A stretch of 64,000 bases of DNA from Prevotella disiens JCM 6334 = ATCC 29426 (lineage in GTDB: Bacteria > Bacteroidota > Bacteroidia > Bacteroidales > Bacteroidaceae), in the NCBI RefSeq assembly GCF_000613345.1, contig NZ_BAIS01000001.1, positions 1-64,000 of the forward strand, read 5' to 3'. This document shows positions 42,040 through 50,012 of the stretch, in pieces. The notes beneath the pieces were generated by a model. That model saw only the letters and a list, made by a program, of their open reading frames with translations. It did not search any database and had not been told where the DNA came from. The translations under genes and the position numbers were made by a program. Position 1 is the stretch's first letter; each line of letters opens with the position of its first letter.

Positions 42040-44154
42040 ATGAATCAACGCCATTTCACATATTATAATAAAATAAAGCAAGTGGGAAATCAACTTAAAA
42101 AGCATGATTTCTGGTTTGTTTTAACCCTTGTTCTGCTCGTTAGTAGCTGCGGAATCGACCGAAATATTAAGAAAGGAGAGAAGTTTCTCGAAATTGGAGA
42201 ATACTTTGATGCTGCCGCACAGTTTAAGACAGCCTACCAAAAAACACCTGCAAAGGAGCGAGAACAGCGTGGAAAATTGGCTAAAAAAATGGCATTTTGT
42301 TACGACAGAATCAATCAATCGCAACGTGCTATAGCTGCTTACAGAAACGTAATACGCTATAAACAAGACGACAAAGAAACACACTTAAAGTTGGCTGAAA
42401 ACCTTATGAAGGTGGGAGCCTACCCTGATGCGGTTAAAGAATATACCATTGCGTTAGACTCTATGCCCGATAACGATATGGCAAAAGAGGGACTTTCGGC
42501 TGCCAATATAGCCCCTACTATCAAAGAACAGGGGTCGTATTATGAGGTAAGACGAATGGATAAATTCAATTCAAGACGGCAAGATTATTCGCCAATGTTC
42601 TATGGCGACCAATATAATGAACTTTATTTCACTTCGACACGCAACGATGCGCAAGGCGATGAGATAAGTGGCATAACAGGAACAAAGCCTGGCGACATCT
42701 TCGTCAGTGAGAAAGACGACAAAGGAAAGTGGGGTGCGCCACACACAATAGAGAGTGGATTGAACTCAATTGCCGATGAAGGAACGCCAGCTTTCTCGCC
42801 TGACGGACGTGAAATGTACATTACCCAATGCTTAACCGATGCCACCTATCCTCGATTTGCACAGATAGCAGTGAGCAGCAGAGCCGATGCGGCATGGGGA
42901 AAGCCTAAACCTTTGGAAATAAGTAGAGATACCTTGTCAAGCTATGCCCACCCTGCCCTATCGCCAGACGGCAATTGGCTCTACTTCGTTAGTGATATGC
43001 CTGGTGGAAAAGGAGGCTTGGATATATGGCGAGTTCGATTGATTGGTGGCACAACAGGGGGCGTTGAAAACCTCGGTGCGCCCATAAATACGGCAGGAAA
43101 TGAGATGTTTCCAACGTTCAGACCTAATGGCGATTTCTATTTTTCATCAGACGGTCATGGCGGATTGGGGGGCTTAGATGTCTTTATAGCAAAGGTGGGA
43201 AGCGATAAACGCTACCATATTGAGCACCCTGGATTTCCTTTAAATTCTGCTGGCGACGACTTCGGACTCACGTTTGAGGGCAAACACAACCGTGGTTTCT
43301 TCTCGTCTAATCGTGGAGATGCTCGTGGTTGGGACCATATTTATAGCTTTGAATTGCCTGAAATAATACAAACCATTAAAGGTTGGGTCTACGAAATGGA
43401 GGGATACGAGTTGCCCGCAGCGCAAGTTTTCTTAGTGGGCGACGACGGAACAAACCTAAAATTATCGGTAAAAGGCGATGGGTCGTTCGAGCAAGAAATA
43501 AAGCCTAACGTGAATTACATTCTCTTAGCAACGTGTCAAGGTTTCCTTAACCACAAAGAAGAGTTAAAGGTTGAGCCTGTAAAGGAAACGAAAGAATATA
43601 CTTTGCAATTCCCTTTGGCGAGCATTCGTGTACCTGTCATGATTGACAACATCTTCTACGATTTTGATAAAGCTACACTTCGACCAGAATCGGAGGCTGC
43701 ATTAGACAATCTTGTGAAACTTTTAAACGAAAATCCTAACGTTACCATAGAACTTTCGGCACACACCGACTACTTAGGACGGGCTGAATACAACAAGAAT
43801 TTGGCACAAAGAAGAGCCGATGCGGTGGTGGCTTACTTGATAAAGAAAGGTGTCTCAGCCGACCGTTTGTCGCCTGTTGGTTACGGAGAGGGTAAGCCTA
43901 AAACTATAAGAAAGAAAGTTGCAGAGAAATATCCATGGCTAAAAGAAGGTCAGGTGCTTACCGAAGAGTTTATAAAATCGTTGCCAAAAGACAAGCAAGA
44001 AATAGCCAACCAAATGAATAGGCGTACTGAATTTGTTGTTCTCCGCACCACTTACGGTATGTTTGACGAGAAAGGTAATCTTAAAAATCCGCCAAAACCA
44101 AAGGAAAAAGAAACCTTAGAGGACGACGGCGATGTTTATTTTGAGATTCAATAA
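42040..44154 (+). CDS. porE: Type IX secretion system protein PorE
   Basis: 704-residue cell-envelope protein. A lipoprotein signal with lipobox (LLVSSC, Cys37) is followed by TPR repeats (about 50-150), a beta-propeller with PD40/WD40-like motifs (FSPDGREMY, LSPDGNWLYF; about 180-450), a carboxypeptidase-regulatory-like beta-sandwich (about 450-530), and an OmpA-like peptidoglycan-binding domain (about 550-650; YDFDKATLRPESEAALD and LSAHTDYLGRAEYN). This four-part order matches PorE of Porphyromonas gingivalis, which anchors the type IX apparatus to peptidoglycan. Other type IX genes are elsewhere in the genome. Confidence 0.86.
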   Translation: MNQRHFTYYNKIKQVGNQLKKHDFWFVLTLVLLVSSCGIDRNIKKGEKFLEIGEYFDAAAQFKTAYQKTPAKEREQRGKLAKKMAFCYDRINQSQRAIAAYRNVIRYKQDDKETHLKLAENLMKVGAYPDAVKEYTIALDSMPDNDMAKEGLSAANIAPTIKEQGSYYEVRRMDKFNSRRQDYSPMFYGDQYNELYFTSTRNDAQGDEISGITGTKPGDIFVSEKDDKGKWGAPHTIESGLNSIADEGTPAFSPDGREMYITQCLTDATYPRFAQIAVSSRADAAWGKPKPLEISRDTLSSYAHPALSPDGNWLYFVSDMPGGKGGLDIWRVRLIGGTTGGVENLGAPINTAGNEMFPTFRPNGDFYFSSDGHGGLGGLDVFIAKVGSDKRYHIEHPGFPLNSAGDDFGLTFEGKHNRGFFSSNRGDARGWDHIYSFELPEIIQTIKGWVYEMEGYELPAAQVFLVGDDGTNLKLSVKGDGSFEQEIKPNVNYILLATCQGFLNHKEELKVEPVKETKEYTLQFPLASIRVPVMIDNIFYDFDKATLRPESEAALDNLVKLLNENPNVTIELSAHTDYLGRAEYNKNLAQRRADAVVAYLIKKGVSADRLSPVGYGEGKPKTIRKKVAEKYPWLKEGQVLTEEFIKSLPKDKQEIANQMNRRTEFVVLRTTYGMFDEKGNLKNPPKPKEKETLEDDGDVYFEIQ

Positions 44155-44178: not shown

Positions 44179-45539
44179 ATGGAAAGACATCAAGTTCAAG
44201 ACCAAAATGCAAAGACTTTTGACGACAATAAGTTGCCAAAAGCCTTTGTTGCATACACAAAAGAGTTATTTGGCGAAGAACGCTTCAATAAGTTTTTGTC
44301 GGGTTTGGGGCAGCCTTCGCCTGTTAGTATCCGCCTCAATCCGTTCAAATTGCCTGCCAATGCTACCATTAACGAGGCGTTAAAGCCACGCAAATACCAT
44401 GGTGCAAGGAGGGATTTTACCTTAACGAGCGACCCAACTTTACGTTCGACCCTTTGATACACGCTGGTGCATACTATGTTCAAGAGGCTTCTTCGATGTT
44501 TCTTGCCCATATTTTACGACAATTTGTTCATTTTCCTGTTGCATTGCTCGACCTTTGTGCTGCTCCAGGGGGCAAAACAACATGCGCAAGAACGGCTATT
44601 CCGTCAGAAAGTATTGTCTTTTCCAATGAGCCAATGGGCAAAAGGGCGCAAATTTTAGCCGAAAATGTACAAAAATTTGGACACCCTGACGTTGTTGTAA
44701 CCAATAATTATCCGATAGAATATAAGAAAACAAAACTCAAATTCGATGTGATTGTCGCTGATGTTCCATGCTCTGGCGAAGGAATGTTCCGCAAAGACGA
44801 ACAAGCAATGGCAGAATGGAGCGAGAAAAATGTAGCAAATTGTTGGCAATTACAGCGCAGTATCGTGGCTGATATATGGGACAATTTAAATCCTGGCGGA
44901 CTCCTTATTTACTCTACTTGCACGTTTAATGCGCATGAAAACGAGGAAAATATCGCATGGATTCTCAATGAATACAACGCTGAATTGTTGGAAGTAAAAA
45001 CGGAAAAGGATTGGAACATAATGGGGTCGCTCATCAATAATCCGTTAAAAGATAAAGATTCGTTCCCTGTTTACCGCTTTATTCCAGGATTTACAAAGGG
45101 CGAAGGCTTGTTTATGGCAGTGATAAAAAAGGCTGGAACAAACCCTAATTTGGCAGAAAAGCATACAATAAATGGCGAAAAATTGATTGGCGAAGCTAAG
45201 AAAAAGTTGTATATCATAGCCCATGGGGTAAAGGCTGGCACAACAAAGGGTAAGAATGTTGTCCCCGACCATAGTTTGGCTCTCATGATAAATGGAAAAA
45301 ACGATTTTCCAAAGATAGAAATCAACTATGAAACGGCTATAAAATATCTTAGAAGAGAGGCAATTACACTGGAAAGCAACGCTCCAAAAGGTATTGTTAC
45401 CCTTACTTTTAAAGGACTTGCCATAGGCTTTGCCAAAAATTTAGGCAACCGTGCCAACAATTTATACCCACAGGAGTGGCGCATAAAGAGTAGCCATTTG
45501 CCTGAAGAACAATCGATAATAAATAAAATACAGATATGA
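44179..45539 (+). pseudogene. RsmB/NOP family rRNA m5C methyltransferase, frameshifted
   Basis: SAM-dependent methyltransferase of the RsmB/NOP class. The N-terminal frame ends at 44457. The second frame reads WCKEGFYLNERPNFTFDPLI, then LDLCAAPGGKTT (SAM motif I), NEPMGKRAQILAENV, ADVPCSGEGMFRKD (motif IV with catalytic Cys) and LIYSTCTFNAHENEENI (motif VI with the second Cys), with an RsmF-like C-terminal domain. One base is missing near 44392-44395 (CGCAAATACC lacks one base). All motifs lie after the break, so full-length protein depends on the correction. The stop overlaps the thyA start by ATGA. Confidence 0.85.
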
Positions 45540-46330
45540 AACAATACCTTGACCTGCTCAATCGTATCATAACGGACGGTGTTCAGAAAGGCGACCGCAC
45601 TGGAACAGGAACATTATCAGTATTCGGTAACCAAATGAGATTTAATCTTCAAGAGGGTTTTCCATTGCTGACAACAAAGAAATTGCACCTAAAAAGCATC
45701 ATTTACGAATTACTTTGGTTTCTCAAAGGCGACACAAATGTGAAATATTTGCAGGAGCATGGTGTTAGAATTTGGAATGAATGGGCAGACGAAAATGGAG
45801 AACTTGGTCCTGTTTATGGGCATCAATGGCGTTCATGGCCTAACTATAAAGGAGGCACTATTGACCAAATTTCTGATGTAGTGGATATGATAAAGCACAA
45901 TCCAAACTCTCGTCGTATGCTCGTAACGGCTTGGAATCCAGCTGAAGTAGAGGATATGGCATTGCCACCTTGCCATTGTCTTTTCCAATTTTATGTGGCA
46001 AACAACAAACTTTCATTGCAATTGTATCAACGTTCGGCAGATACTTTCTTGGGAGTACCATTCAATATAGCCTCGTATGCACTCCTCTTGCAAATGATGG
46101 CACAAGCAACAGGACTTGAAGTGGGCGATTTTGTTTATACAACTGGCGATACCCACTTGTATTTGAACCATTTGGAACAAGCGAAACTGCAACTAACACG
46201 TGAGCCACGCCCATTGCCAAAGATGAAAATCAATCCGAATGTAAAAAGTATATTCGACTTTCAATACGAAGATTTTGAACTTATTGACTACAATCCGCAC
46301 CCTCATATTGCTGCGGAAGTGTCGGTTTAA
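45536..46330 (+). CDS. thyA: Thymidylate synthase
   Basis: Makes dTMP from dUMP using methylene-tetrahydrofolate. The 264-residue protein begins [31 protein letters not shown], has the catalytic Cys146 in [10 protein letters not shown], and shows [27 protein letters not shown] and the C-terminal DYNPHP segment. Length is normal. It starts with ATGA overlap with the methyltransferase gene and is followed 74 bases later by folA, which regenerates the tetrahydrofolate consumed here; FolD, later in the window, supplies the same cofactor pool. Confidence 0.98.
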
Positions 46331-46404
46331 AAAACTCGTAGAGTGGCATTCGTATTAAAAAAACACACTTGCAAAAATAAAAGGAAATAGGAAAGAAAAT
46401 AAAA

Positions 46405-46893
46405 ATGGAAATAAATATCATTGCAGCCGTTGCGAAAAATCGTGCAATAGGCTATCAAAACGATATGGTCTACTTCATTAAAGAAGACTTAAAACGATTT
46501 AAACAACTTACAACAGGACATACTGTTATCATGGGACGACGCACTTTCGAATCGCTTTCAAAGGGTGCTTTACCCAACAGACGCAATATTGTATTAAGCC
46601 AAACAAGTACAAATTTTCCTAATTGTGATGTTTTTACCTCACTCAACGAGGCGTTAAAACACATCGGAGCTAACGAAAAAGCATTTATTATGGGCGGTGC
46701 AAGCGTATATAAAGAAGGTTTGCAAATCGCAGACCGACTCTATTTAACTGAAATAGATGCTACCCCACCCCATGCTGATGTATTTTTCCCAGAATATAAT
46801 GATGGAACATGGGAAATAGAAAACAAGGAGGAACGTCCTAAAACAGACGATTCACCAGCCTATGCCTTTGTTGATTACGTTCGTAAAAAATAA
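46405..46893 (+). CDS. folA: Dihydrofolate reductase
   Basis: Reduces dihydrofolate to tetrahydrofolate. The 162-residue protein shows AAVAKNRAIGYQNDMVYF, the KEDLKRFKQLTTGHTVIMGRRT stretch with the catalytic acid and NADPH-binding residues, and GGASVYKEGLQIADRLYLTEID. Length is normal for bacterial DHFR. Placed after thyA as in many genomes. Its transcript is closed by a strong hairpin terminator shared with the convergent gene on the minus strand. Confidence 0.97.
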   Translation: MEINIIAAVAKNRAIGYQNDMVYFIKEDLKRFKQLTTGHTVIMGRRTFESLSKGALPNRRNIVLSQTSTNFPNCDVFTSLNEALKHIGANEKAFIMGGASVYKEGLQIADRLYLTEIDATPPHADVFFPEYNDGTWEIENKEERPKTDDSPAYAFVDYVRKK

Positions 46894-48595: not shown

Positions 48596-48651
48596 AATTT
48601 ACAAATTTATTTAGACGTTTTTAATTTTCTATACTATTACTATCTAACGAT

Positions 48652-49692
48652 TTATCTATGTCCACCGAAGCTACCACCGCCCCCTCGTGAACCACCACCA
48701 AAGGAGCCACCGCCACTACGAGAACCTCCGCCGAAGCTACCACCACCGCTGCGTGAGCCACTACCAAAGGAACTTGAGTTGTAAGAACGTGTGTTACCTC
48801 TATCGTAGTTATTGAATTGACTTTGACGTTGTTGATTTCCAAAACGACTTTGTTGATTTCCAAAACGGCTATTTTGGTTTCCAAAACGACTATTATTGTA
48901 TGTATTTCGTGAATTGTAGTTCGAATTATTATTGCCGAATCGAGATGAACGTTGATTCATGTTACCAAACACGCGATTAGAGTTGTTGCGGTAGGTTTGA
49001 CCACTATAATTATTGTTTCTACCAAAATGGTTTCCAGTGCCAGTATGACCATTATAATAGCCGTAATAGCGATTTCCATAATAAGGGTAACCATAGCCGT
49101 AGTAAGGGTAACCATATCCATAATAAGGATAGCCCCAACCATAATTGTAACGCCATGGATTATACCAACCATAGTATCCTCCATAACCATAATAGCTACC
49201 CCAACCGTAATAACCGCGATACCCATAATGCCAAGGGTCGTAGAAATCGTCGTACCATGGATTCCAATAGCCAACAGAGGCGTAAACTCCTACTGCAGGA
49301 TAGCCATAGCCCCAATAGCCACGATAACCATAAAAGTCGTCGAAGCGCCCCATGCGGCGACTATAAGCAAAGTCGTCTGAATTGTTTTCGTAATAACGTT
49401 CGAATTGATAAATCGTATCTATTCGACTCATTCCGTCATTTGTACGATATTCTACAATATCGTTGCCCAAAGAATCACGACCTATTTTTTTATAGAAACC
49501 TTGCAAATTTGCACGACGATTGTAGTCGTAATCATTTTTCTCGATACCACTATAATAAGTTGGGCTATCATCTACTTGAACTTCAACATTCTTTACAGAC
49601 TGCTTAGATGGTATAAAATAAACATCATCTTGCGCCATCATTGAAAGAGGAAGTGCTGCTGCCATTAATGAAAATAGTATGAATCGTTTCAT
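48652..49692 (-). CDS. Secreted Tyr/Gly- and RFGN-repeat low-complexity protein
   Basis: 346-residue exported protein of no named family. Signal peptide MKRFILFSLMAAALPLSMMA is followed by a charged region (about 20-110), then a segment extremely rich in Tyr, Gly, Trp and Pro with repeats such as YPYYGYGYPYYG (about 110-205), then Asn/Arg/Phe repeats SRFGNQ (about 230-290), and finally GGGSRSGGGSFGG repeats to the end. The start at 49692 is chosen because a Shine-Dalgarno-like GGAGG (plus coordinates 49700-49704) precedes it and because a signal peptide begins there. The composition suggests a cohesive or phase-separating surface protein, which is inference. Confidence 0.8.
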   Translation of the reverse strand: MKRFILFSLMAAALPLSMMAQDDVYFIPSKQSVKNVEVQVDDSPTYYSGIEKNDYDYNRRANLQGFYKKIGRDSLGNDIVEYRTNDGMSRIDTIYQFERYYENNSDDFAYSRRMGRFDDFYGYRGYWGYGYPAVGVYASVGYWNPWYDDFYDPWHYGYRGYYGWGSYYGYGGYYGWYNPWRYNYGWGYPYYGYGYPYYGYGYPYYGNRYYGYYNGHTGTGNHFGRNNNYSGQTYRNNSNRVFGNMNQRSSRFGNNNSNYNSRNTYNNSRFGNQNSRFGNQQSRFGNQQRQSQFNNYDRGNTRSYNSSSFGSGSRSGGGSFGGGSRSGGGSFGGGSRGGGGSFGGHR

Positions 49693-49756
49693 GATTTTTA
49701 CCTCCATTTATTTGTTATGTATTTGTTATTCTTATTTTCCGTTTTTCTATCTGATG

Positions 49757-49951: not shown

Positions 49952-50012
49952 AAAAGAGCCTGTTTCATGGTTCAAAAGAGCCTGTTTTATCGTTCAAAAG
50001 AGCCTATTTTTT
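49952..50012. repeat. 22-bp-period intergenic repeat array A5 (3 units plus an inverted copy)
   Basis: Cores start at 49952, 49974 and 49996, exactly 22 bp apart, e.g. CAAAAGAGCCTGTTTTA and CAAAAGAGCCTATTTTT. Just before it, AAACAGGCTCTTT is an inverted copy that pairs with the first unit to make a hairpin. The 397-base gap at 49693-50089 otherwise has promoter candidates and no gene. Confidence 0.85.

Follow-up and report, generated by a model that had tools for sequence, protein, structure and literature searches.

A predicted disordered low-complexity protein encoded beside a FadL-type barrel gene in Prevotella disiens: a candidate two-gene module of Bacteroidota

What might a secreted protein built largely of short repeats be doing next to a gene for an outer-membrane protein? 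The question is raised by a locus in a window of 64,000 nucleotides, the whole stretch of Prevotella disiens DNA that was analysed, in which a first-pass annotation had described three stacked low-complexity tracts recalling proteins that phase-separate or form sticky fibres. The tracts are real, each of them corresponding to a tandem array in the DNA (Table 1). The residues G, S, Y, N, R, P and W together make up 0.664 of the protein, as compared to a mean of 0.303 (s.d. 0.030, maximum 0.399) for the 45 other non-overlapping open reading frames (ORFs) of at least 150 aa in the window. The best explanation, to which we give about an even chance, is that the gene encodes an intrinsically disordered partner of a FadL-type barrel encoded just downstream, and that the two genes form a module widespread in Bacteroidota. 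The protein is therefore referred to below as the partner.

Table 1. Features of the partner and barrel genes in the window.
Feature	Position in window	Strand	Basis
FadL-type outer-membrane barrel (predicted), 536 aa	46985..48595	(-)	PorV_fam below cut-off, A2 searches, AlphaFold2 model, Foldseek
Intergenic gap of putative operon, 56 bp	48596..48651	(-)	ORF coordinates
Partner, secreted low-complexity protein, 346 aa	48652..49692	(-)	ORF list
Probable signal peptide, residues 1-21 (MKRFILF...MMAQ)	49630..49692	(-)	Sequence reading, alignment A1, model helix
Conserved N-terminal segment, residues 22-118: DDVYF..., YNRR, predicted hairpin (YKKIGRDSLGNDIVEY), DDFAYSRRMGRF	49339..49629	(-)	A1, model
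Tyr/Trp/Gly/Pro-rich region, residues 119-220	49033..49338	(-)	Sequence, A1
YGYPYYG array, three units (GYPYYGYGYPYYGYGYPYYG)	49076-49145	(-)	DNA tandem array, 21 bp x3.3
SRFGNQ repeats x3	48825..48891	(-)	DNA tandem array, 21 bp x3.2
GGGSFGGGSR repeats and basic C-terminal end	48655..48773	(-)	DNA tandem array 48662-48773, 33 bp x3.4

The start of the partner was taken as the MKRF at 49692, the ORF listing beginning at an in-frame ATG at 49707. As judged by eye, its hydrophobic N-terminus, which ends in MMAQ followed by DD, fits a signal peptide and is consistent with the secretion claimed earlier. A similar AQ/(D)DD junction is present in most Prevotella rows of our 36-row partner profile (A1), and a helix at residues 2-19 of the partner model lies within the same stretch. 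In the segment that follows, Y25 is invariant among the 36 rows and D22, D23, Y57, N58 and R116 are each kept in at least 90% of them, while the strands of the predicted hairpin span residues 67-72 and 78-83. Lengths of the tracts differ among the relatives and the order of the regions is kept. The protein terminates in GGHR, and many relatives in GGRR. Apart from the signal helix and the small hairpin the model is of low confidence (mean pLDDT 46, pTM 0.19), and the partner is predicted to be disordered. The protein has an aromatic, Arg, Gly and Ser make-up, and composition of this kind is associated with phase separation. No family in Pfam or NCBIfam matched the window partner at E<=1, and 28 diverse relatives gave a single match in each collection, namely an unrelated-looking Pfam family at E 0.003 and an NCBIfam model at E 0.0095.

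Repeats of this kind could be unconstrained junk. For four close same-genus pairs, three of them drawn among the same three genes, dN/dS after residue 120 is 0.074, 0.129, 0.099 and 0.126, as compared to 0.025-0.064 in the N-terminal part; a fifth pair (L011-L050), with dS about 2, was left out of the range. Judged by these ratios purifying selection acts on the low-complexity half, less tightly than on the N-terminal part, and values of 0.07-0.13 rule out the junk explanation.

A1 detects the partner in 131 of the 151 Bacteroidaceae genomes searched, covering 19 of 22 genera, and across Bacteroidales in 51 of 198. All of the first 40 partner loci (40/40) encode a relative of the same barrel just downstream, and the following 42 give 40 more; in the two exceptions the locus or contig ends too early. 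The distance between the two genes has a median of 46 bp over 178 pairs. A protein type so widespread in Bacteroidota does not bear out the earlier description of the combination as unusual in a bacterial protein.

The association was also approached from the opposite direction, by searching with the barrel alone (A2, an alignment of 11 rows; E<=1e-10). A barrel match is present in 195 of the 198 Bacteroidales genomes and, for Bacteroidia, in 181 of 197; most genomes have just one. Because A1 finds the partner in 51 of the 198 Bacteroidales genomes as compared to 195 for the barrel, and because one genome (G083) is negative with A1 and positive (1.1e-62) with A3, a 28-row partner profile to which its gene supplied a row, A1 undercounts. 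At the barrel-reached loci of Bacteroidia, a low-complexity ORF lies upstream on the same strand in 111 of 115, the ORF being at least 120 aa long, at most 600 bp upstream and with G+S+Y+N+R+P+W of at least 0.50. The 115 loci are L083-L198 without L148, which is the barrel body of G260, and include the window's own locus, L083; L148 and L199-L201 were left out of the counts. Sampling took 20 previously unfetched Bacteroidales matches at even steps, a further 19 hand-picked barrels and a set of mostly weak matches within Bacteroidia; the matches taken outside that class, treated below, are mostly near full length. The 111 ORFs comprise 99 distinct proteins, whose lowest composition is 0.504, and 12 already counted at other loci. 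Among the four remaining loci, the partner of L162 is present by profile match, and no partner adjoins the barrel in L130, L180 and L197, the genomes of which carry an A1 match on a different contig (G256, for L130) or an unlinked A3 match (G458 and G452, for L180 and L197). This spread across Bacteroidaceae, Bacteroidales and Bacteroidia genomes rules out a Prevotella oddity.

In the phylum at large, 136 of 198 genomes have a barrel match (E<=1e-5) and the other 62 have none at this threshold; the module is thus not present in every member. Outside Bacteroidia, 18 of 20 Bacteroidota loci encode a low-complexity lipoprotein starting with CYT on the strand of the barrel within the approximately 3.5 kb fetched upstream, 14 of the 18 with a mature start of CYTQL or CYTQF. 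It is not directly adjacent to the barrel in five loci (L203, L204, L207, L210, L221), and two loci (L209, L218) have no CYT lipoprotein in the fetched upstream stretch. Identity to the window protein across classes is 21-32%, and homology of the tail therefore rests more on position, architecture and composition than on alignment. In L203 (at 747-1376), L204 and L207 the gene next to the barrel encodes a second small lipoprotein, carrying CxxCH (CKSCH, CGSCH, CAQCH), and separates the CYT lipoprotein gene from that of the barrel.

The relatives share a basic end. Among 178 distinct partner ORFs, one of which is wrong (L035, a mis-picked ORF of composition 0.23), 161 end in K or R, and at least two K or R occur in the last four residues of 154; the corresponding counts are 14 of 45 for ORFs of the window and 19 of 80 for ORFs from the loci. 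The median net charge over the last 100 residues of the partners is +11. Of the 80 control ORFs of L031-L040, 2 reach a composition of 0.45, one of them being the barrel of L031.

When place is ignored and whole genomes are searched with A3 (E<=0.001), a match is present in 136 of 197 Bacteroidia genomes. Of the 117 genomes listed in both searches, 106 have their best match no more than 2.5 kb from the barrel; after removal of the eight genomes that supplied A3 rows the figure is 98 of 109. In the other 11 of the 117 the best match lies away from the barrel; one of these (G442) has a second match beside the barrel, and in another (G430) the barrel lies 480 bases from the contig start. In all four members of family f153 listed with a partner match (G422, G458, G487, G538) the best one is unlinked, which would fit a splitting of the pair within this lineage.

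The partner was detected in 135 of 181 barrel-bearing and in 1 of 16 barrel-less Bacteroidia genomes (Fisher P 7e-8, or 1.4e-7 without the eight A3-contributing genomes), the sole barrel-less match (G468) being a 201-aa non-repetitive protein. With the barrel-less genomes also collapsed to nine families and the barrel-bearing ones left uncollapsed, P is 2.8e-4. This test is limited because A3 finds only 136 of the 197 genomes and because 7 of the 16 barrel-less genomes belong to one family. Rechecking of 19 barrel-less genomes revealed one (G238) with a partner running into a contig end, while weak matches in four others (G468, G545, G569, G496) turned out to be other proteins. By these counts, partner and barrel tend to be absent together.

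The downstream gene had been described earlier as an outer-membrane gene, which agrees with our modelling. The AlphaFold2 model, generated from the 11 rows of A2, three of them cut short, is a beta-barrel (mean pLDDT 69.9, pTM 0.71). The best 27 PDB chains in a Foldseek search are BamG, FadL, a FadL homologue, TodX, TbuX or CymD (E 1.5e-13 to 5.3e-9, TM 0.36-0.62, rmsd 8-12), the top three being the BamG chains of Flavobacterium johnsoniae, Bacteroides thetaiotaomicron and Porphyromonas gingivalis, followed by FadL and TodX. A FadL-type fold is thus predicted for the window barrel. In sequence searches, phmmer gave 0 matches in the PDB at E<=1 and no Pfam family matched the window barrel at E<=0.01, and 3 of the 11 alignment rows match PF03349 (Toluene_X).

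Two named members of the fold class were considered and rejected as identities for the barrel. BamG is excluded by the lack of PDB matches and by a paralogue in the same genome (L200) that is itself BamG (1.3e-89 to 9hiv_F) and that aligns to the barrel alignment with an hhalign probability of 22.7. PorV is excluded since the barrel scores 36.7 bits against the PorV_fam cut-off of 90 and the genome has its own PorV elsewhere (L199; 9.2e-84 to 6h3i_F), to which the barrel shows a remote relation (hhalign probability 95.7 over 119 columns). As far as these comparisons go, the window barrel is a paralogue separate from the PorV and the BamG of the genome.

The relation to PorV, weak by PorV_fam score and seen as a remote one by hhalign, would suit an accessory of type 9 secretion in which the barrel acts as a PorV-like shuttle with the low-complexity protein as cargo. 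We regard this as very improbable. The partner is present in 28 of 39 SprA-less Bacteroidaceae genomes (a count by subtraction; 14 of 20 among the genomes listed), and the sorting-domain models of the type 9 system in NCBIfam gave no match to it at E<=1; type 9 export is therefore unlikely. Together with the separate true PorV of the genome, these results rule out a type 9 cargo or a PorV partner. SprA-bearing genomes do carry the partner more often (103 of 112; P 0.004), an association that may well be a detection bias of the undercounting A1 profile.

On which side of the outer membrane would the partner then reside? A crude lipobox pattern is present in 62 of 146 full-length relatives, at least four of these hits appearing spurious (L066, L073, L076, L088) and two relatives having been missed (L074, L113). 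The mark for export to the surface is reported to be at least two acidic residues in the six positions after the Cys (PMC12578637). None of the 62 lipobox relatives has two (none in 51, one in 11), and the same holds for the 18 CYT lipoproteins (none in 16, one in 2); these lipoproteins are therefore predicted to face the periplasm. The window protein has a signal peptide only; it lacks a lipobox, as do the Bacteroidaceae forms inspected, and since this Prevotella form has no lipid anchor its periplasmic placement rests on its relatives. The surface location proposed in the first-pass annotation is accordingly disfavoured for the lipidated relatives, and the unanchored Prevotella protein may itself lie on either side.

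Several known systems offer comparison, BamG-BamH being the nearest worked case. In B. thetaiotaomicron, the N-terminus of the lipoprotein BamH is reported to be wedged into the BamG barrel, and bamG2-bamH2 is described as a putative operon (PMC12578637); BamG-BamH is reported as universally conserved across Bacteroidota (PMC12611786). The likeness lies in a FadL-type barrel with a dedicated lipoprotein partner, and in the structural matches given above. However, BamH is described as a folded surface lipoprotein, whereas the window partner is predicted to be disordered and is of low complexity, no acidic export signal is present in its lipidated relatives, and the BamG of this genome is encoded elsewhere. 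PorV belongs to the FadL-type family as well, with profile similarity to the window barrel detectable, but it too has its match elsewhere in the genome and the partner occurs without SprA. FadL, TodX and TbuX share the fold class; the window barrel differs in having no Pfam match at the threshold given and in its low-complexity neighbour. A further parallel in gene arrangement, known here by description and not by sequence, may be Fjoh_4940-Fjoh_4941 of F. johnsoniae, a lipoprotein gene near that of a FadL homologue, whose products are reported to rise 2.6- and 5.6-fold on TamL depletion and which the authors suggest to be functionally linked (PMC12045153). The titles and abstract openings of the papers listed by our literature searches show no description of the partner-barrel pair, and searches on low-complexity envelope proteins of Bacteroidota gave no lead.

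The kinship of the barrel with FadL, TbuX and TodX, and the aromatic-rich middle region of the partner, would also accommodate uptake of a hydrophobic ligand, with the barrel importing a lipid or aromatic compound and the tail serving as its periplasmic acceptor. This seems improbable to us, as presence in 195 of 198 Bacteroidales genomes suggests a housekeeping role over one tied to a single nutrient.

Our preferred reading, a disordered partner of the barrel, starts from the pairing of the two genes, their order, strand and spread, their tendency to joint absence, the predicted disorder and the purifying selection, all read from sequence. Export would follow the Sec route, and many lineages would lipidate the partner and hold it at the periplasmic side of the outer membrane. 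By analogy to BamG-BamH, its conserved N-terminal segment (DDxYY/F and later motifs, or CYTQL/F in other classes) may dock on the barrel. The tail, which is aromatic, rich in Gly/Ser and often in Arg, and basic at its end, would then form a flexible multivalent layer under the barrel or threaded through it. Such a layer could tether or gate the barrel, perhaps through contacts with peptidoglycan, with lipid phosphates or with further proteins of the envelope. Placement of the docked tail on the periplasmic face is favoured because the lipidated relatives lack the acidic signal. The conserved adjacency can stem from co-regulation alone.

Two related possibilities give the tail a more specific function. 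In the first, it would phase-separate at the mouth of the barrel, on either side of the membrane, and form a selective sticky layer. Aromatic and Arg residues on Gly/Ser spacers, and a composition kept while tract lengths vary, point in this direction, but some relatives contain little Arg (0.02 in L091, 0.01 in L156), and the missing surface-export signal argues against the cell exterior. CsgF, which partners the CsgG channel, provides a precedent. It is described as a secreted, phase-separating protein that regulates an outer-membrane secretion step, modulating the secretion of curli subunits (PMC10133297); the comparison is one of function and not of sequence, and curli subunits are involved in its case. 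We consider such a condensate unlikely for the window partner.

In the second, the disordered segment would run through the lumen of the barrel and sense or seal it. A long disordered segment with a linked barrel gene suits this arrangement, and RcsF threads the porins of E. coli. A BamP linker is likewise reported inside the BamA barrel of F. johnsoniae, but FadL-type barrels are described in the same report as carrying their own N-terminal tail through the pore (PMC12611786), and we consider a threaded plug quite unlikely.

A bolder reading, which we put forward as possible but rather doubtful, is that in most Bacteroidota the disordered, aromatic and basic tail of the protein or lipoprotein forms either a condensate or a threaded brush at its dedicated FadL-type barrel, in housekeeping organisation of the outer membrane alongside the BAM extension BamG/BamH. 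A pair so widely kept, with a selected low-complexity tail, should have a basic role in the Bacteroidota outer membrane. Through this pair, conserved disorder in the bacterial envelope can be put to the test, and the partner provides a handle on a FadL-type barrel without an assigned role.

The surroundings of the pair in the window provide some minor observations. Adjoining the barrel, positions 45536-46893 presumably encode thymidylate-synthase-like and dihydrofolate-reductase-like proteins; neither gene was found in L031-L040, and L197 has a thymidylate-synthase-like ORF close to its barrel. Farther on, the overlapping ORFs 44179-44457 and 44454-45539 are seemingly one gene split by a frameshift, which we take to resemble RNA methyltransferases of the NOL1/NOP2/Sun type, and 42040-44154 encodes a 704-aa protein with an OmpA-like C-terminus, presumably similar to PorE-type envelope proteins. 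On the other side, between the partner gene and a GYF-domain gene, a 22-bp unit (AAAAGAGCCTGTTTTATCGTTC) is repeated 2.7 times at 49952-50010. An inverted copy is read in the sequence just ahead of it (AACAGGCTCTTT...AAAAGAGCCTGTT), and the repeat looks like stacked terminators.
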